From: Candidatus Limnocylindrales bacterium
GTDB taxonomy: Bacteria > Moduliflexota > Moduliflexia > Moduliflexales > JAUQPW01
NCBI GenBank assembly: GCA_035559535.1
Contig: DATMBG010000036.1
Coordinates: forward strand, 62,001 to 126,000
Direction of reading: 5' to 3'
DNA: 64,000 nt
The notes below the pieces were generated by a model, which was not told where the DNA came from, made no database searches, and saw only the letters and a program-made list of their open reading frames with translations. A program made the position numbers and the translations under genes. This document shows, piece by piece, positions 3,012 through 63,083 of the stretch (position 1 is its first letter; each line of letters opens with the position of its first letter).

Positions 3012-3280
3012 CTACTGTCTGCGTAGTTTAGGATCCAGGAGATCCCGAAGGGCATCTCCCAATAAGTTAAAGCCAAAAACGGCCAGGCTGATAGCCAGTC
3101 CGGGAAAGATAACCAGCCAGGGAGCCTTCTGGGCATATTCAACCGCGGAAACGGAGAGCATGCGTCCCCAGGAGGGATAGGGTTCCGGCACTCCCATTCC
3201 CAGGAAACTCAAGGAGGCTTCCACTAAGATGGCACTTCCCAGTTGGGCCGTGGTCAGTACGATAAAAGGTCCCAGGGTAT
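3012..3280 (-). pseudogene. Orphan 3' end of an oligopeptide permease gene (dppC-type)
   Basis: These bases encode only the last ~89 residues of a DppC/OppC-type permease. They are almost identical to the end of the complete gene at 8237-9100: within 3021-3280 versus 8246-8505 I see a single difference (Val versus Ala in SVSxEYAQK), whereas the last nine bases before and including the stop differ at three positions (LRRQ versus LRKQ). The upstream part is replaced at 3281 by a transposase remnant, so the frame is an accidental fusion of 27 transposase residues to a permease tail. It cannot make a working permease. It may be the original end of the operon, displaced by the material now lying between the two copies. 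Confidence 0.85.
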
Positions 3281-8236: not shown

Positions 8237-9100
8237 CTATTGCTTGCGTAGTTTAGGATCCAGGAGATCCCGAAGGGCATCTCCCAATAAGTTAAAGCCA
8301 AAAACGGCCAGGCTGATAGCCAGTCCGGGAAAGATAACCAGCCAGGGAGCCTTCTGGGCATATTCAGCCGCGGAAACGGAGAGCATGCGTCCCCAGGAGG
8401 GATAGGGTTCCGGCACTCCCATTCCCAGGAAACTCAAGGAGGCTTCCACTAAGATGGCACTTCCCAGTTGGGCCGTGGTCAGTACGATAAAAGGTCCCAG
8501 GGTATTGGGCAGGATATGGCGGAAAGCGATACGACCCTCTTTGCTTCCAAGGGCCCTTGCCGCCTCAACGTAAGCCATCTCCCGGATGGTCAGGGTACTG
8601 GCCCGGATGACCCGCGCAGCACGAGGGATAAGGGGAACCGAGATGGCCAGGATGACATTCCACACCGAAGGACCCAGAGCCGCAGACATCACCAAAGCCA
8701 GAACAAGAAGGGGAAGCCCCTGCATAATGTCAAGAAATCGTTGACTAATCAGATCTACTTTTCCTCCCAGATAGCCACTCAGGAGTCCTACGATACCTCC
8801 AATGACCGAACCCAACAAGGTAGAGCCCAATCCCACCAGTAAGGAAAGCTGGCTTCCATAAACAATCCGGCTGTAGACATCTCTTCCCAGATTATCCGTT
8901 CCTAGCCAAAAAGTTCGGTTGGGAGGGACCAGGGTTTGGGCCGGATGGGTTCGCGTTGGATCCTTGGTAGCCAGGAAATCGGCAAAGGCAGCCGTAAAAA
9001 CCAGAAGAAATACGATGATTCCTCCTGCAGCCCCTAAGGGTTTCCTTCGTAAAAATCGCCCGGCCCGGCGAAGTATTTGTAGCCACTTTCCTTCTTTCAT
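8237..9100 (-). CDS. dppC: ABC transporter permease, DppC/OppC type
   Basis: The 287-residue inner-membrane permease has an N-terminal cytoplasmic stretch, a first helix (GAAGGIIVFLLVFTAAFADF), the conserved LGTDNLGRDVYSRIVYGSQ periplasmic motif of DppC/OppC proteins and the BPD_transp_1 domain with the ATPase-contact loop EAARALGSKEGRIAFRHILP. It should form the channel with the DppB-type protein at 10533-11489 for uptake of peptides or similar substrates. It is the last gene of the operon in the window, 4 bases after the family-1 binding protein. No ATPase genes follow; instead the locus meets the damaged region, and its last 260 bases are duplicated at 3021-3280. Confidence 0.95.
   Translation of the reverse strand: MKEGKWLQILRRAGRFLRRKPLGAAGGIIVFLLVFTAAFADFLATKDPTRTHPAQTLVPPNRTFWLGTDNLGRDVYSRIVYGSQLSLLVGLGSTLLGSVIGGIVGLLSGYLGGKVDLISQRFLDIMQGLPLLVLALVMSAALGPSVWNVILAISVPLIPRAARVIRASTLTIREMAYVEAARALGSKEGRIAFRHILPNTLGPFIVLTTAQLGSAILVEASLSFLGMGVPEPYPSWGRMLSVSAAEYAQKAPWLVIFPGLAISLAVFGFNLLGDALRDLLDPKLRKQ
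8246..8505. repeat. 260-bp direct repeat (second copy of 3021-3280)
   Basis: This block inside dppC matches 3021-3280 in the same orientation at all but one position by eye. The two copies bracket about 5 kb containing the transposase relic, the propeller gene and the PA14 membrane protein. Direct repeats this similar could recombine to delete that segment. Confidence 0.9.
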
Positions 9101-10391: not shown

Positions 10392-10417
10392 AATCTCTCT
10401 GTGACTTCCTTTAAATA

Positions 10418-10501
10418 TTCATCCACGAAGCATGGGGGCGTATGGGGGTATGGGGGTATGGGAGAATCTACACCCATACGCCCCCATGCTTCGTGGATGA
10501 A
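10418..10501. repeat. 29-bp perfect inverted repeat with G-rich 8-bp tandem core
   Basis: Arms 10418-10446 and 10473-10501 are perfect reverse complements (starting TTCATCCACGAAGCATGG), and the centre holds repeated GTATGGGG units. It sits between the binding-protein gene and dppB. A related palindrome with the same GTATGGG and GGAGAAT-TACACC elements lies at 63008-63083, so this is a dispersed family rather than a dedicated terminator, although the hairpin could attenuate or stabilise the operon transcript. Confidence 0.85.
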
Positions 10502-10532
10502 TAAAATAATCAAAGGTAAAGTATCGCATTAT

Positions 10533-11703: not shown

Positions 11704-13317
11704 TTATTTATCTAACCAGACCTCCTGCATCCGACCGTAGTTATAAACACTTTGATGCGGCACTAAGTTTTTAACATACGGCCACATGGCAAAGTAATCG
11801 AGAGCCCAACCCAGGATAGGTCTGGCCCCGTCTATCTGGAGTTTTTTATCGATCTCCTGGACCAGTTTGAGACGTTCGGCGAAATCGAGGGTTTGAGATT
11901 GCTTCTCAATCAATTCATCGATTTCTTTGTTGCAATAACCCGAATAATTACGGGGCGAACCGCATTTGTAGTTTTCAAAGTAGTTGGCATCGGGATCATC
12001 GGGACCAATACCGGTTCGATTGGCAGCAAGGGTATACTCCCTCCGTGTAACTTTCGGATGCCAGACTCCCGTCTCCACCTGTTCCAAAGTTGCTTCGATT
12101 CCTACTTGTTTGAGCTGATCAATGACAAAGTTAGCCGGGTCTAAATAACTCGCCGTGGCCCGTGTAGATAAGACGACTTTTAAGGGATTATCCGGGCCAT
12201 ATCCCAGTTCGGCCAGGATTTTTTTCGCTTCCTCCTTCTGTTTGACCGGATCTCCATAGCCCGGCAGTTTAACCAGCTCTTCTTCCGGAAGTCCCCAAAC
12301 TCCATAAGGTTTAGGGAGCATCGCTCCGCCTATAACCCCTCCTCCCTGATATACAGCCTGAACATAAGCTCTACGATCCATGGCCAGGTTAATGGCTAAT
12401 CGCAACTTTGGGTTATCAAAGGGAGGTTTCTCAAAATTAATCAAGATGTTCTCATTAACGTTTTGACTGGTCTCCACGATAACCATATCCGGATTGGTCT
12501 TCTTCAAGGTCTCGGCAATGGTTTTTGTGGTATCAAAGGGAAAAGCAATATCGACCTGTCCGGCTTGTAGGGCGGCTGTGCGGGTGGCCCGATCCTTGAT
12601 CATGATATAACGAATACCGTCCAGGTAGGGACGTCCCGGAATAAAGTAATCGGGATTTTTCTCCAACTCCAACACCTCGCCCGGACGATGTTCTTTCATT
12701 TTGAAGGGACCGGTTCCTACACATTTGGTGCGAAGTTGGGCAGGGGGGATATGGGCGGGATAAACAGGAGAGTATCCTGAGGCCAGCATCATCAAGAGCG
12801 AGGGTTGGGGTCGTTTCAGGCGGAAAATAACTGTAGCTTCATCAGGAGCATCGATAGCTTCTACATTATCATACCAGAGTTTACGGGGATTTACCCGTAA
12901 TTTGACCGTCATGCCGGGAGCCTGACGAACCAGGTCAAAGGTATACTTTACATCTTTGGAGCTGAAAGGCTGGCCGTCGTGCCACTTGACCCCTTTTCGT
13001 AGATGAAAAACCAAACTCTTTCCCTCATCCTGCCACTCCCAGCTCTCGGCCAGTTCTCCAATGATAGTCTCCATACTCTCTTGTTTTTTCAATGGATCAA
13101 AGAGTACCAGGTTATTATAGCAGGGCATCATGGGCCATACGGTAGAAGCCGTTGCTTCTTCGTGGATGCTTAGACTGGGAATGTCTGCAATGTGGGAAGC
13201 ATTAAGAATTCCTCCATACTTCGGTTCAGCTTGAGCCCCTGAAGCCGGAGAGGATAAAAGTAACCAGAGAGCAGAAATTCCCACCAAGACAGAAAACACC
13301 TTTGGATACTTTTTCAT
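11704..13317 (-). CDS. ABC transporter substrate-binding protein, family 5 (DppA/OppA type)
   Basis: This 537-residue exported protein has a Sec signal (MKKYPKVFSVLVGISALWLLL, then ASGAQAEPKYGG). The mature chain carries family-5 hallmarks: YGGILNASHIADIPSLS, then LAESWEWQDEGKSLVFHLRKG, V-KWHDGQPFSSKDVKYTFDLV, and later ILAELGYGPDNPLKV. It would capture peptides or similar solutes in the periplasm and hand them to DppB/DppC. It is the first gene of the operon. About 210 bases separate it from dppB, in which I see no gene. No lipobox is visible, so it should be soluble. Confidence 0.93.
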   Translation of the reverse strand: MKKYPKVFSVLVGISALWLLLSSPASGAQAEPKYGGILNASHIADIPSLSIHEEATASTVWPMMPCYNNLVLFDPLKKQESMETIIGELAESWEWQDEGKSLVFHLRKGVKWHDGQPFSSKDVKYTFDLVRQAPGMTVKLRVNPRKLWYDNVEAIDAPDEATVIFRLKRPQPSLLMMLASGYSPVYPAHIPPAQLRTKCVGTGPFKMKEHRPGEVLELEKNPDYFIPGRPYLDGIRYIMIKDRATRTAALQAGQVDIAFPFDTTKTIAETLKKTNPDMVIVETSQNVNENILINFEKPPFDNPKLRLAINLAMDRRAYVQAVYQGGGVIGGAMLPKPYGVWGLPEEELVKLPGYGDPVKQKEEAKKILAELGYGPDNPLKVVLSTRATASYLDPANFVIDQLKQVGIEATLEQVETGVWHPKVTRREYTLAANRTGIGPDDPDANYFENYKCGSPRNYSGYCNKEIDELIEKQSQTLDFAERLKLVQEIDKKLQIDGARPILGWALDYFAMWPYVKNLVPHQSVYNYGRMQEVWLDK

Positions 13318-13493
13318 ATCTGTCCTACCAAATTTGGATGATTACTTCGCCCCGGTCAAGACAGCAAAGCGCGAATTATTCAAACAAATTTGGTGTCGTC
13401 CCTAAAAATAAATAAAGGTCCTCAAAGGACACTTACCATCTTTTGGAGTTATAATATAACCTAACGTAAAAGTCAAGAAATGGCCTGTGAAAA

Positions 13494-13551
13494 GTAACTG
13501 TAACCCTTTAATAGGGGTCACTTTTTCCGCCTACTAAATCGATACAGATAC
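13494..13551. mobile_element. Minimal MITE copy (58 bp) with 9-bp target duplication
   Basis: Two terminal inverted repeats stand back to back: one arm starts GTAACTGTAACCCTTTAATA and ends CACTTTTTC, the other reads GTATCTGTATCGATTTAGTA on the minus strand. The loop found in other copies is missing. The element is flanked by CTGTGAAAA and CTGCGAAAA, a 9-bp duplication with one change. The rest of 13318-13850 shows no gene. Confidence 0.75.
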
Positions 13552-13850
13552 CTGCGAAAAAGTTACCCGGCCGGTACTGAGAACCCAACGCTTTCTGGAG
13601 GTAACCCGACAGGAAGGAGGAAGGCTATGGTATAATGAAGGGATGGAGGTAAGTGGAGGATCTTTTTATAAAGGACCCTCCGAATTCTACCTGGTTCAAA
13701 AAAGCGAATTCTATCGAAGCTTTCCCTGCTGAGTAAGCAAGATAATTTTTCACGGAAGGCCCTTGACAATAAAATTTAGAAGAACTAGTTTATCTCATGC
13801 AGACAGGATTAGTTAAAGTCTAAGATCTTCCCCTTTTATCCTTCCGAATC

Positions 13851-14034: not shown

Positions 14035-14290
14035 ACACCGCATGCCTCATCCTCCCTTCCCCTTATGGGCCAGGTTAAGGGTAAAAAGCCCCGCCAGGGG
14101 CTATCTACGGGTCGTGCTCCGCTGGGGCTAACCTTCTGCGCGTATGCCTCCGATTCCTCTCCCACGCTGGGGAGGGGGGCCGGCGGATTTCCGGACCAAT
14201 TTCCCAAGTACGCCCTTCTCCCGAAGCTTCGGAAGAGGGGCCGGGGGCGAGGGCAGAACGGTTATTCAAATTTAACTTTACAAGGTAGTA
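14035..14290. repeat. GC-rich dispersed intergenic repeat, copy 1
   Basis: This block carries short palindromes (GCCAGGGGC, CCGAAGCTTCGG) and ends AACTTTACAAGGTAG. The same order of elements, diverged, occurs at 16255-16610, and part of it (GCCAGGGGCTATC) recurs on the other strand near 33600. The 414-base gap 13925-14338 holds nothing else. Confidence 0.6.
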
Positions 14291-16254: not shown

Positions 16255-16610
16255 GTGTAATTCTCGGCCCTCCCCCCGGTCCCCATAGGCGCCAGGTTAA
16301 GGTGCCCTCACCCGGTCCCTCCCCCGTTTCCCAGGGGAGGGAATTTCGCTTCAAAGTACCTTCCCCAGCCAAGTAGTGCTTTGTTACTTTAATTTTGCTT
16401 AATGTTTAAGTGGTCCTCACCCCCGGCCCTTCTCCCACAGCGTGGGAGAGAGGAGCTGAGGGATCTCCAGGCCAAATTCCCAGGGGCCTTTTCTCCCCTT
16501 TCTGGAGCAGGTAAAAAACCTTCCTTAAAAGCCTCCTTCCCCCTCCCCTGAAGCTTCAGGAGAGGGGTGCAGGGGGAAGGGAAAAACGATTATTTGACTT
16601 TACAAGATGC
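16255..16610. repeat. GC-rich dispersed intergenic repeat, copy 2
   Basis: Elements shared with 14035-14290 appear in the same order: CCATAGGCGCCAGGTTAAGG, TCTCCCACAGCGTGGGAGAG, CCAAATTCCCA, CTGAAGCTTCAGGAGAGGGG and TGACTTTACAAGATG. No open frame of note lies in the 827-base gap 16041-16867. The block looks like an old non-coding repeat or REP-type array. Confidence 0.55.
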
Positions 16611-25896: not shown

Positions 25897-26535
25897 TCAG
25901 GCCGGTACTTTGAATCGACTTCGATTGCGAACACGTTCCACAAGGGTTGCCGGGGCTTTACTGGGCGATCCTGTGTTAAAAGGTGGTTGGGGATCGTATT
26001 CCAGGCTGAGCTGAATGGTCTGAGCAACTTCCTCTCCGTACTCAAGTGCCGTCAAAGTGAGGGCCATATCGATTCCCGCCGAGACTCCGGCTGCTGTAAT
26101 AATCTTACCCTGGACCACCACACGTTCCGATACAGCCTCAGCTCCTAGCTGGCGTAAAACATGAAGGGCCAGCCAATGGGTAGTAGCCCGTAATCCTTGA
26201 AGTAAACCCGCAGCGGCCAATATTAAAGCTCCTGTACAAACCGAAGTGGTCCAGCGGGTCGTGGCATGAACCTGACGAATCCAATCCAACACAACGTGAT
26301 CCTCCATTAAATCAGCCTGTCCCGGTCCTCCTGGAATCACGATAATATCCGGTGAAGAAATATCTTTAAGCGCATAATCGGCCATTAAAGCAAGACTTCC
26401 GGCATCGGTACGTTTAGGGCCCGGTTCTTTTGCGACAAAACGTATCTGAGCCCCGGGAATCTGTCTCAAGACCTCATAGGGTCCCACGGCATCCAGGGCG
26501 GTTAATCGATCAAAAAGAAGAATAGCTGCTTCCAT
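25897..26535 (-). CDS. DJ-1/PfpI family protein
   Basis: The 212-residue protein has the class-I glutamine-amidotransferase-like fold of the DJ-1/PfpI family, with the nucleophile-elbow Cys in TTSVCTGALILAAAG (~residue 100) and an early acidic residue in DAVGPYEVL (~16-24), as in isonitrile hydratase and ThiJ-like proteins. VIPGGPGQADL lies between. Activity could be isonitrile hydration, glyoxalase/deglycase-type chemistry or a regulatory role. CAGGAGGTATC upstream of the ATG fixes the start. It is followed by no operon partner. Confidence 0.88.
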   Translation of the reverse strand: MEAAILLFDRLTALDAVGPYEVLRQIPGAQIRFVAKEPGPKRTDAGSLALMADYALKDISSPDIIVIPGGPGQADLMEDHVVLDWIRQVHATTRWTTSVCTGALILAAAGLLQGLRATTHWLALHVLRQLGAEAVSERVVVQGKIITAAGVSAGIDMALTLTALEYGEEVAQTIQLSLEYDPQPPFNTGSPSKAPATLVERVRNRSRFKVPA

Positions 26536-26614
26536 AAAGATACCTCCTGTATCAGGGAGTTTTATTAAGTTTTAGAGTCCTTCCAGCTGAGTGTCAAGGG
26601 AACCTGCTTAAATG

Positions 26615-26768
26615 GTAACTATACCAATTTAGTAGGTGTCACTTTTTCTGTCTGAACACCCCCCCATCCCCCCAGGGGGGACTGACATAGGGTTGCTGCT
26701 GCTGAATCCCCCCTGGAGGGGGATGGGGGGGGCGTTTCTTTTTCCACCTACTAAATGGATACGGATAC
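26615..26768. mobile_element. MITE copy A (154 bp) with perfect 9-bp target duplication
   Basis: The left end starts GTAACTATACCAATTTAGTA and the right end, on the minus strand, GTATCCGTATCCATTTAGTA. The core holds a G/C hairpin with loop GACTGACATAGGGTTGCTGC. The nine bases GCTTAAATG stand immediately outside both ends. No transposase is encoded; it lies in the 466-base gap between the DJ-1 gene and the histidine kinase. Confidence 0.88.
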
Positions 26769-27001
26769 GCTTAAATGGAAAAAGATCAACAACTCTGAAA
26801 AACCCCCTGTTTTTTGAAAGTTATGAATAAAAAGTTTTTATTAATGTCCGAGATTAATCTTTCTTCCCCTTTACTTTGTCTATGAATGTAGAAAGATTCC
26901 GGGTCGTTTTTATTTTTTAATCAATCTATTGGAAGTGCAAGGGGTAAAAGCTCAATATTTCTCTTTACTTTATGGCTATTATTCCAAATAAGGGAGTTTT
27001 T

Positions 27002-32541: not shown

Positions 32542-33030
32542 ATGACCCACGCCATCTTAACTCTACTGGTAGGTAGTATTGGAGGGTATCTAGGTTTACG
32601 TTTTAATCTCCCTTCCGGAATCATGATGGGAGCTTTAATAGCAGTAGCCATTTTTAAACTCACCGTTATGGAAGTAGGTCGATTTCCGGCTCCTTTGGAT
32701 TTCTTTATTCAGGTAGCGGTAGGAAGTGCCATCGGCTTATCTGTAACCCCCCGACTTCTTAAAGACATACGGGCAAATTGGTTTCTGGTTTTCTTTTCCT
32801 CGGCTCTTTTAATCGCTTTAGGCCTTTTGGTGGGTCTTATTCTGGCTAAGTTTAAAGGTATGGATCTGATTACAGCTCTTCTCAGCACGATGCCAGGTGG
32901 AATTGCCTCTTTAGGTGTTGTTGCCGTTAAAAGCGGGGCCAACGCTTCCATCGTGGCCCTGTTTCATTTTGTGAGACTTCTCTGTATTTTATTCTTTGCG
33001 TCTTTTCTGGTAAAATGGCTGGAGGGTTAA
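32542..33030 (+). CDS. AbrB-family membrane protein
   Basis: The 162-residue protein is almost wholly hydrophobic with about five helices and matches one repeat of the AbrB/AidB-regulator membrane family (PF05145): LGLRFNLPSGIMMGALIAVA, then PRLLKDI and LLSTMPGGIASLGVVA. Full-length members carry two such repeats, so this is a half-size protein that may dimerise. Function is unproven; a transporter role has been suggested for the family. AAGGAGATTTTTTC precedes the ATG. It is probably co-transcribed with ddl. Its stop shares the bases TTAA with the stop of the opposite gene. Confidence 0.8.
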   Translation: MTHAILTLLVGSIGGYLGLRFNLPSGIMMGALIAVAIFKLTVMEVGRFPAPLDFFIQVAVGSAIGLSVTPRLLKDIRANWFLVFFSSALLIALGLLVGLILAKFKGMDLITALLSTMPGGIASLGVVAVKSGANASIVALFHFVRLLCILFFASFLVKWLEG

Positions 33031-33410
33031 TCAGATTTCGTTTTTTGAAGTAAGTTCTGGACGTGGGTCAGGAGTTTTTGGGAAGAAACCGGCTTGAGTA
33101 AAAAGAGATCAGCCCCGGCCTGATAGACTTCTTCCTCTTCCAGATCGCTGGCGCTGGAGACAATAACCGGAATATCTTTCAACTCTGGATCCTGTTTGAC
33201 ATACTGGCAAATCTCAATGCCACTGATATCTGGAAAACGAATATCCGTTAAGATCAGGCTCGGTTTATATTCTTTAGCCTTTGCCAGTCCGGTCATTCCA
33301 TCATCGGCAATAATGACCTCAAACCCCTGCTGCTTGAAAATCTCCTCTTGAACTTCCAACACTTCCTTACGGTCTTCAATGATTAAAATCTTTTCCAGTT
33401 TACCAAACAT
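33027..33410 (-). CDS. Single-domain response regulator
   Basis: From ATG 33410 (AAAGGA site 7-8 bases upstream) this is a 127-residue CheY-like receiver with no output domain: ILIIEDRKEVL (acidic pocket), phospho-acceptor Asp in LILTDIRFPD, SSASD (Thr/Ser switch) and the late Lys in LFLLKPVSS. It would act by protein-protein contact. No kinase is adjacent; the hybrid kinase at 27.0 kb is a possible partner. An upstream start at 33431 would add seven residues but is further from the ribosome site. Its stop overlaps the convergent AbrB-family gene by four bases. Confidence 0.9.
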   Translation of the reverse strand: MFGKLEKILIIEDRKEVLEVQEEIFKQQGFEVIIADDGMTGLAKAKEYKPSLILTDIRFPDISGIEICQYVKQDPELKDIPVIVSSASDLEEEEVYQAGADLFLLKPVSSQKLLTHVQNLLQKTKSD

Positions 33411-33511
33411 GCCGTCCTTTCTTTTATTCAACTCTTTCAGAATATTTTCTCTATTTTAATTAAAGATAATCTTATAAAAGAATAAACACTTTACCCCTAC
33501 CTGTCAAGTTT

Positions 33512-33541
33512 GTATCCGTATCCATTTAGTAGGTGGAAAAA
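33512..33541. mobile_element. MITE half copy (one terminal repeat only)
   Basis: GTATCCGTATCCATTTAGTA followed by GGTGGAAAAAG matches the right-type end of the MITE family exactly, but no second end is found before pyrB. The following 200 bases carry another G/C-rich repeat (GGTTGACTCCGGTGGGGCAA, GCCCCTGGCTTACGCCAGGGG region) related to 14060-14130. The element was probably truncated or overwritten. Confidence 0.6.
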
Positions 33542-33741
33542 GCCACACCTCCCTGGCCCCATATGGGTCAGGATAAGAAGGTTGACTCCGGTGGGGCAAC
33601 CTGTGGATAGCCCCTGGCTTACGCCAGGGGAGACAGGATCATAGGATCCTCTAAGCTCCAGGTCTGATCCTTAGCTTGATGCGTATAAGGTTGCTCCTAC
33701 CCAGGATCCAGCCCCTTCAGAGGGGATGGATAAGAGGCGAC

Positions 33742-46762: not shown

Positions 46763-46804
46763 CCCTCACCCCCTCTCCTGAAGCTTCAGGAGAGGGGGTG
46801 AGGG
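46763..46804. terminator. Perfect 42-bp palindrome between convergent genes
   Basis: Arms of 21 bases (CCCTCACCCCCTCTCCTGAAG and its exact complement) meet without a loop at AAGCTT. It lies 30 bases after the phosphodiesterase stop and ~100 bases from the opposing stop at 46908, so it is well placed as a bidirectional terminator. Tandem GAGACAAGG-type units (46805-46859) follow. The CTGAAGCTTCAGGAGAGGGG part also occurs at 16551-16570. Confidence 0.65.
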
Positions 46805-46907
46805 GGAGACAAGGCGAAGGGCCTCCCCGTCCCCTTGTCTCCTCGTCCCTTTGTCTCAAAAAGGGGGCCGATCCTGCTCTTGATTCCTCTGATTTCCTGT
46901 TTTGATA

Positions 46908-55325: not shown

Positions 55326-56207
55326 TTAGATTAATTCAACCTCTCTTAACAGCTTTTTCAGATCTTCGATTTCTTCCTGATTGGGTGCTGGGAGAGGAGA
55401 TCGGGGTTTACCTCCGTAATAACCAACCAGGTCCATAGCGGCTTTGAGTCCTCCAATTCCATACTTAACCGTTACCCCCTTGGCCAGAGGCGTCATCCTA
55501 AACTGCTGTTGTCGGGCCCCTTTCAGGTCTCCCTGCTGATAGAGCTCCTGAATCCGAACCATCTCATCGGGAGCCACATTGGCCACAGCTACAATTCCTC
55601 CAACTGCTCCGACACAGAGGGCCGGTAATAAGACCAGCGCAGACCCTGTAAACGTACTAAAATGAGCCGGTGCCATTCGGACGATATCACTTAACTGGGC
55701 AATATTACCCGAGCTGTCTTTAATCCCTACAATGTTGGGGTGCTGGGCAAGCCGTGCAACCAGGTCGGCTTCTAGGTTGATCCCCGTGCACTGAGGAATG
55801 TTATAAAGGAGTACTTTGGTCTTGGCTTTGTCCGCTATGGTCATGTAGTGTTTATAGAGAATTTCCGATTTGGTCAGAGCGTTTTTGTAAAAACCGGGAG
55901 ATACAACCAAAACCCCATCAGCTCCAAGCTCTGCAGCCTTATTGGTTAACTCGATGGTTCCTTGAGTAGATTCTAAACCCGTTCCTACCAGTAAAACCTT
56001 CTCCTTAGGTACGACCTTTCGTGCGGTTTCGATGACCCGAAGTTTTTCCTGTTCGGTAAGATGAACCGGTTCACTGTTAGTTCCCAAAATCACATAACCG
56101 GCCAGCTTTGTCCGATTGAGCTTGGTTAAATTTTCCGCCAGTTTATCATAGGCAACCTCGTCCTCCTTAAAGGGAGTCGGAATAGGTGGAAGTATACCTT
56201 TAAACAT
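55326..56207 (-). CDS. Dihydrodipicolinate synthase family aldolase
   Basis: The 293-residue TIM-barrel protein of the DapA/NAL family shows [35 protein letters not shown], the Tyr in [17 protein letters not shown] and the Schiff-base Lys in [14 protein letters not shown] (~residue 162). True DapA usually reads GTTGE where this has GTNSE, which points to a 4-hydroxy-2-oxoglutarate or similar aldolase rather than DapA proper. It sits 2 bases before prfA and is likely co-transcribed. The substrate is not determinable from the sequence. Confidence 0.88.
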
Positions 56208-56483
56208 ATATGAGTCCGTTGCTATTGTCCATTGTCCGCTGTTACAGACAACTATCCAATGCTTAATAAAATTAATTAAAGGTACGATCTATTAAAAAAT
56301 CCAGAAGATAGAGGTAATTCCAACCAGATCTGGTCACAAAGATATCCTTATTACCTGCGTTTAAGAGAAAATTTTGTCTACCCCTATTTTCTTCAGTCTC
56401 TATGGCTAAATCTTGATCTGCAGGAGGATACTAAACTAAGTTATTACTTAATCTGTAAATATGTCAAGCAAAACTTCCAGGCT

Positions 56484-56639
56484 GTATCCGTATCAATTTA
56501 GTAGATGGAAAAAGAAACACCCCTCAATCCCCCTCCAGGGGGGACTGACGTAGGGTTGCTGCTGCTGAAGTCTCCCCTCCAGGGGGGACCGGGGGGGTTC
56601 AGACAGAAAAAGTGACGCTTACTAAATTGTTACAGTTAC
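56484..56639. mobile_element. MITE copy C (156 bp) with 9-bp target duplication
   Basis: The left end reads GTATCCGTATCAATTTAGTA and the right end, on the minus strand, GTAACTGTAACAATTTAGTA. Flanks are TTCCAGGCT and TTCCCGGCT, a 9-bp duplication with one change. The core holds GACTGACGTAGGGTTGCTGC in the same orientation as in copy A although the two end types are exchanged. The surrounding 690-base gap (56208-56897) also has a GTCCGTTGCT-type repeat at 56213-56255 and a small GGGCAG/CTGCCC hairpin near 56755. Confidence 0.88.
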
Positions 56640-56897
56640 TTCCCGGCTAAGGTCATCCGGGCTGGGAGAGGAATCATCTTTTTTGCTTGAAAATCGGTGG
56701 ATTTTAAGGTACTTTATTCCAGGGAATGCCCCTGGAGATCTTATACCTAAAATAGGGCAGTCACAGAGGGCTGCCCCTACAATTTAGGCCAGGTCTTCAT
56801 ATCGAACTGGTAGCAGGGATAAAACCACTAGGGGTTGTTTTTTATTGGGAGATTCCTCAAACCGATTTATGCTTAAAAGAGGGAGAAATATAAAAAA

Positions 56898-62798: not shown

Positions 62799-63007
62799 TC
62801 TTTTACCAAACTTTTCACTGGACAGATGTGTCTAATTTTAATAAGCTTTGTATGGTTTACAAATAACATGTATACCTTTTTTAATGAAGAAGGTCAAGTC
62901 CCTTCCCAAAGGGTTAAAGTAAAAAAATAATCATACGTGTTTACTATACTTTTATATTTTTACTTTTTTTCATAAGTTATTGATTTTGTTTATCCAGGAA
63001 GGGTCAA

Positions 63008-63083
63008 GAAAAGTGTGGGAGTATAGGTGTAAATTCTCCTATCCTCCCATCCCCCCATACGCCCACACTCCCATACTTTTCTT
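63008..63083. repeat. G-rich inverted repeat related to 10418-10501
   Basis: On the minus strand this region reads GTATGGGAGTGTGGGCGTAT, then GGGAGGATAGGAGAATTTAC and ACCTATACTCCCACACTTTT, i.e. tandem G-rich units followed by their complement, with the same internal GGAGAAT-TACACC block as the repeat at 10418-10501. The remaining gap 62799-63186 contains AT-rich DNA (62830-62990) that could hold promoters for both flanking genes. Confidence 0.7.

Follow-up and report, generated by a model that had tools for sequence, protein, structure and literature searches.

Gene-less miniature elements in a fixed register upstream of predicted promoters in two sister bacterial species

We propose, with a probability of about 0.87, that a set of short repeats in this genome is a new family of MITEs belonging to a Mutator-like transposon that seeks out promoters, with insertions just upstream of pre-existing promoters of the sigma70 type. 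Four features can be read from the sequences: two related ends of ∼20 bp, 9-bp target duplications, clean empty sites in a sister species, and a register of 16–17 bp between the element edge and the −35 box. This fixed register, absent from the preliminary description of the DNA, is the most informative feature, and promoter targeting lifts the family above a routine MITE.

Copies in the window

The window (the whole stretch of DNA that was analysed, 64,000 nucleotides) contains three complete copies and one half copy, all intergenic and upstream of genes.

13485–13493, no strand: left target duplication CTGTGAAAA
13494–13551, plus strand: MITE copy of 58 bp with an internal deletion, both ends retained; the sister orthologous site has a 124-bp version
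13552–13560, no strand: right target duplication CTGCGAAAA, one mismatch (CTGTGAAAA in the sister species)
26606–26614, no strand: left 9-bp target duplication GCTTAAATG, which occurs once at the element-free orthologous site of the sister species
26615–26768, plus strand: complete MITE copy of 154 bp, with left A-type end (GTAACTATACCAATTTAGTA), right T-type end and G/C-rich hairpin core; not in the sister species
26769–26777, no strand: right 9-bp target duplication GCTTAAATG
33512–33541, plus strand: degraded copy, with a T-type end leading into another repeat module and no right end found to match
56475–56483, no strand: left target duplication TTCCAGGCT
56484–56639, plus strand: complete MITE copy of 156 bp, with left T-type end and right A-type end; empty site in the sister species
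56640–56648, no strand: right target duplication TTCCCGGCT, one mismatch

Each complete copy has one A-type and one T-type end, and the two members of its 9-bp duplication differ at 1 (13494–13551), 0 (26615–26768) or 1 (56484–56639) positions. The coordinates and sequences that the preliminary description had given for the three complete copies and the half copy all hold. As DNA, the 26615 copy folds into a strong hairpin (z = −5.2) and the 56484 copy into a weaker one (z = −2.0). The 58-bp copy arose by internal deletion from a longer element: at the orthologous position the sister still holds a 124-bp element with its CTGTGAAAA duplication intact.

Other repeats were noted in the window. 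A second interspersed repeat (CCCATAnGGGTCAGGATAAGAAGGTTAGCCCC...GGGGCAACCTGT) is found at 14051–14112, 16273–16302 and 33549–33640; it has dozens of matches in the sister genome and is also nested within MITEs. Three copies of a palindrome around CTCTCCTGAAGCTTCAGGAGAGGGG lie at 14212–14250, 16539–16577 and 46769–46807. The long hairpin at 10416–10503 (35-nt arms, 97% complementary) has a related copy 52 kb off, at 63005–63067, and is possibly another miniature element. Positions 3012–3280 and 8237–8505, 5.2 kb apart, are a 269-bp duplicate at 99% identity, carrying the C-terminal third of an OppC-type permease.

Family size, ends and interior

We searched the window's genome (a 5.6-Mb assembly of 58 contigs) for the two end types, A (GTAACTGTAACNATTTAGTA) and T (GTATCCGTATCNATTTAGTA), allowing at most 3 mismatches and using the reversed patterns as controls. 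Both types, first proposed from the window, were borne out: A-type matches numbered 57 + 52 against 1 + 1 for the reversed control, and T-type matches 43 + 39 against 0 + 1, the two match sets overlapping. A merged scan of the stretches fetched around these ends gave 128 ends in the window's genome; the sister species had 119. The consensus A and T ends are 80% alike. Their first base is G in 95–97% of ends, and the inverted repeats therefore have a terminal C.

We catalogued 50 complete paired copies, ranging over 38–432 bp with a mode of ∼156 bp and mostly 153–160 bp long. The 9-bp target duplication is exact in 21 of the 50 and has at most 2 mismatches in 36; when left and right 9-mers were drawn from different copies, 0.24% of the pairs agreed as closely. 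The duplications, originally noticed at the window's complete copies (0–1 mismatches), are thus a genome-wide property, and the copies do not lack them, as they might have if the preliminary interpretation were wrong. With no catalogued copy above 432 bp, all are too small for a transposase gene, in keeping with the earlier statement that none encodes a protein. The elements are, in sum, short, non-coding and multicopy, with terminal inverted repeats, as MITEs are.

The interior is built of modules, among them a G/C-rich hairpin, an alternative ATTTCTTACGAAAATCG end module and nested copies of several further repeats. Certain copies of 38–58 bp consist of the ends and the duplication alone, with no hairpin. 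A further repeat, TTATCTTTACCCACATTTTTCG...AAAAATGTGGGTAA, recurs within MITE cores at four loci (L087, L105, L061 and L082) and apparently represents a separate mobile family lodged inside the MITEs.

The family is narrowly distributed. Among 78 genomes searched it was found in one other, of the same genus (44 + 44 matches), which is the sister species; the rest of the 78, two members of its order included, had end matches at the level of the controls. The GTDB contig collection, scanned for exact matches, yielded one MAG only (JAUQPW01), which we take to be the sister genome, and viral contigs gave no match to the MITE ends.

Empty sites in the sister species

The sister genome is ∼90% identical in DNA to the window's genome. 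We searched it with the joined flanks of 18 copies, and aligned 13 sites base by base. Eleven were uninterrupted, with a single copy of the 9-bp target, including those of window copies 26615 and 56484; the other two were diverged and likewise had no element. Because these 11 clean sites hold one copy of the 9 bp, we conclude that the elements transpose. Target-site duplications combined with empty orthologous sites are a further mark of MITEs. Had the sister loci carried the duplication with no element, the preliminary interpretation would have been in difficulty; they carry neither. The reading of the repeats as transposed MITEs is supported, and the short repeats are confirmed as real gene-less mobile elements. 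The preliminary description had gone further, claiming direct evidence of transposition by a partner enzyme acting in trans. Transposition itself stands on the empty sites, and mobilization in trans we infer.

Other insertion sites are common to both species, with differing interiors. At one of them (L146 versus G000:C32:69803–69960) the far end also differs, T-type versus A/ATTTCTTA type, which suggests gene conversion between copies or re-insertion.

A fixed register to predicted promoters

All three complete window copies stand in this register (edge 16 or 17 bp from the −35 box) to predicted promoters, upstream of minus-strand genes.

13448–13476, minus strand: targeted predicted promoter, TTGACT (13476–13471), spacer 17, TATAAC (13453–13448); edge of the 13494 copy at distance 17, gene 11704–13317 (minus strand) downstream
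26569–26597, minus strand: targeted predicted promoter, TTGACA (26597–26592), spacer 17, TAAAAC (26574–26569), present at the empty site; edge of the 26615 copy at distance 17, gene 25897–26535 (minus strand) downstream
33502–33507, minus strand: −35 box TTGACA of the predicted promoter beside the half copy, gene 33027–33431 (minus strand)
56440–56467, minus strand: targeted predicted promoter, TTGACA (56467–56462), spacer 16, AATAAC (56445–56440); edge of the 56484 copy at distance 16, gene 55326–56207 (minus strand) downstream

At the half copy the edge is 4 bp from the −35 box here and 16 bp in the sister species, because ∼12 bp of flank appear to have been lost here.

The register holds genome-wide. 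Counted outward from the element edge, 47 of the 128 ends have TTGACA (at least 5 of 6 positions) at 16–17 bp, where about one was expected (background 0.55 per distance); other distances are near 0.55. In the sister species the count is 45 of 119, partly from orthologous insertions. A promoter score combining the −35 and −10 matches reached its threshold of at least 8/12 in register for 80% of complete copies, as against 3% at shifted control registers; ∼20% of complete copies have no recognisable promoter in register. When ends were aligned on the −35 box, a −10 box of the form T-A-n-n-n-T appeared at spacer 17. Targeted TTGACs have better −10 boxes (mean 4.12 matches of 6) than other intergenic TTGACs (3.02; p = 9e-9), and TTGACs inside genes average 2.46; the targets are therefore predicted to be promoters, more than a bare motif. 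Of the 11 insertions confined to one species, nine are in register. Empty sites already have the flanking promoter sequence, and the predicted promoters are therefore older than the insertions.

In standard −35 numbering the duplicated 9 bp fall at about −52 to −44. Ends of either type may be turned to the promoter (A-type 31, T-type 18). Insertion 16–17 bp upstream of the predicted sigma70/A −35 box agrees with the ∼15–17 bp of promoter-targeting Mutator-like elements. We also observed a minor second TTGACA peak at 35–39 bp from the element edge, ∼two helical turns past the main register, in both MITE-carrying genomes (G000 and G001).

A candidate partner transposase

An intact element with the same ends and a transposase was found in neither genome. 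In the stretches around listed ends of the window's genome, no pair of ends 0.8–3.5 kb apart had a matching duplication; with the span extended to 6 kb over stretches of both genomes, the largest pair was of 500 bp, in the sister, with no open frame. That element (L148, 1501–2000) has matching ends, an exact ATCATGGAA duplication, and a non-hairpin, non-coding interior. The window's genome gave no match to PF01609, PF00872 or the ISKra4 transposase model.

The sister genome does contain a broken Mutator-like transposase gene in single copy (contig C47, locus L285), hereafter the relic. It matches PF00872 Transposase_mut at 8.7e-8 and NCBIfam IS256 at 8.5e-10, the latter with 38.1 bits against a family cut-off of 150, outside the IS256 family proper. 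The ISLre2 model gave E = 0.006 and the ISKra4 model was not among the matches listed; the relic belongs to neither family proper. Its motifs VAVD, TDGWEGY and CRFH are consistent with the two aspartates (D1, D2) and the C-x2-H signature of Mutator-like transposases, and it has no detectable N-terminal family match. Among 289 genomes, plasmids, phages and viral contigs we found no close relative of it.

The downstream border of the relic (...CTAAATTGTTACAGTTAC) closes with GTAACTGTAACAATTTAG, which shares 18 identical bp with the A-type MITE end, and TTGACA-17-TAGAAT follows 16 bp further on. Its left end is lost, and its two flanks are 12.7 kb apart in the window's genome. The same promoter there is taken by a MITE, but its end is of the other type and its boundary lies 2 bp away, for which reason the relic, whose interior is not MITE-like, is best read as a separate insertion. 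The identical end and the same register make the relic the likely partner lineage, a link to the MITEs that rests on one end.

Other candidates were rejected. Seven DDE_Tnp_1 (PF01609) transposases in the sister genome have no matching ends, and the family is absent from the window's genome. IS256 elements in another genome (G129), matched by the relic, have different ends. The ends of an ISKra4-like element in a genome of the same order (G003) differ from those of the MITEs, and in register it shows no evident promoter.

Alternative explanations

Could these be ordinary MITEs that insert at random, the promoter-adjacent ones merely tolerated by purifying selection? The position of all four window copies, between genes and upstream of them, is what such tolerance would leave. 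A register set to within 1–2 bp, with 47 ends at 16–17 bp against about one elsewhere, is hard for selection to produce, and it is seen again among the sister's ends and among recent insertions that one species has and the other lacks; we regard random insertion as very improbable. A strong G/C-rich hairpin in certain copies might recall non-mobile regulatory hairpins, REP- or attenuator-like, conserved beside promoters. Empty sites refute that reading, and the target duplications and the 38–58 bp copies without a hairpin also speak against it.

Two further alternatives concern the means of targeting and the partner. The transposase may read −35 DNA (TTGAC) directly, with no role for RNA polymerase; matches in register, a set selected for TTGACA, hardly differ in their TTGAC core, while the −10 box varies. 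Against this stand the far better −10 boxes of targeted over other intergenic TTGACs, and certain copies with a weak −35 and a perfect −10 box, such as TTAAAT-18-TATAAT at C11:3942. We consider direct reading of the −35 box rather unlikely, though it deserves some weight. Nor do we favor the idea, which we judge slightly less probable still, that the relic is no partner and that the true transposase is of another family, as yet unseen. There is one relic only, its left end is missing, and since a MITE sits at that promoter in the window's genome, an unrelated relic could have come to lie beside a MITE end. Yet the relic differs from that MITE in end type, in its boundary and in its interior, and sits in the MITE family's own register, and the combination of 9-bp duplications with a 15–17 bp promoter spacing is a published trait of the superfamily (PMC3942029).

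Proposed mechanism and significance

In the reading that we prefer, of MITEs derived from a promoter-seeking Mutator-like transposon, the transposase would find its site through RNA polymerase bound at the promoter or through the promoter DNA, the guidance proposed for TnGBS, and would place the element just outside the core promoter, sparing both gene and promoter, so that the site may serve as a safe harbour. The G/C-rich hairpin core and nested modules would be dispensable cargo, which may be lost by internal deletion or remodelled, with the ends and the site of insertion retained. Probably, the lineage of the broken transposase gene in the sister species is also that of the source element. 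We hold it at even odds that relic and MITEs represent a further, unnamed promoter-targeting Mutator-like lineage in thinly sampled bacteria, whose MITEs inherit targeting by their ends alone and in the two species have brought elements to about −52 of dozens of promoters.

The principle of promoter-upstream targeting is already published for TnGBS, ISLre2 and ISKra4 (PMC3942029). The text of that paper does not mention MITEs, the available part of a 2024 review of prokaryotic MITEs does not describe such targeting, and our search of the open-access literature turned up no case of it among gene-less miniature elements. Two sister species, with clean before-and-after pairs, resolve the targeting here to the single base. 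It is now directly testable whether targeting needs just the element ends, the transposase and RNA polymerase, and what effect a 150-bp hairpin element at −52 has on promoter activity. The MITE ends could also find practical use as markers of sigma70 promoters in uncultured bacteria.

Comparison with known systems

Guerillot et al. (2014) described five prokaryotic families of Mutator-like transposases (p-MULT), whose elements make 8–9 bp duplications and have inverted repeats of 18–39 bp with a terminal cytosine (PMC3942029). The transposases are of the Mutator DDE type, with a C/D-x2-H signature after the second Asp, and a motif between domains N1 and N2 is associated with promoter targeting (PMC3942029). 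Three groups (TnGBS, ISLre2 and, in part, ISKra4) insert upstream of sigmaA promoters, at 15–17 bp from the −35 box for TnGBS and ISLre2, and contact with the RNA polymerase initiation complex has been proposed as the targeting mechanism (PMC3942029). Promoter-targeting elements transpose via a circular intermediate, and those with near-identical ends insert in either orientation (PMC3942029). The MITE family, with its 9-bp duplication and inverted repeats ending in C, agrees with p-MULT elements in these respects and, judged from its sequences, has every trait of duplication, ends and insertion given here for the promoter-targeting ones that could be tested.

TnGBS and ISLre2 (p-MULT 3) are alike in duplication length (8–9 bp) and in insertion 15–17 bp upstream of the −35 box (PMC3942029). 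Their transposases are of the Mutator DDE type (PMC3942029), the motifs of which are seen here in the sister's broken relic. They differ in being IS or conjugative elements with their own transposase, not gene-less MITEs, and in nearly always turning one end to the promoter, whereas both ends are used here (PMC3942029). ISLre2 is mostly from Firmicutes (PMC3942029), and the MITE family is in another lineage. The ISKra4 group (p-MULT 4) is spread over a wide range of phyla, and its promoter-upstream members with near-identical inverted repeats likewise have no orientation bias (PMC3942029); however, neither MITE-carrying genome (G000 or G001) has a match to its model. The IS256 family (p-MULT 1) also makes 8–9 bp duplications and is the closest model for the relic's catalytic region, but its insertion is reported as random (PMC3942029) and the relic is far below the family cut-off.

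Outside the superfamily, Correia elements and other promoter-bearing bacterial MITEs are similarly short gene-less elements upstream of genes (PMC10969869). Correia elements carry promoters (PMC10969869); here the promoter is the target's own, older than the insertion. The yeast retrotransposons Ty1 and Ty3 are alike in strategy, the transcription machinery directing their integration just upstream of genes, but they are unrelated retroelements with RNA polymerase III targets (PMC5911963). From the published p-MULT elements the MITE family is set apart by being gene-less, by its other host lineage, and by a candidate transposase, the only one, that is assigned to none of the families described.
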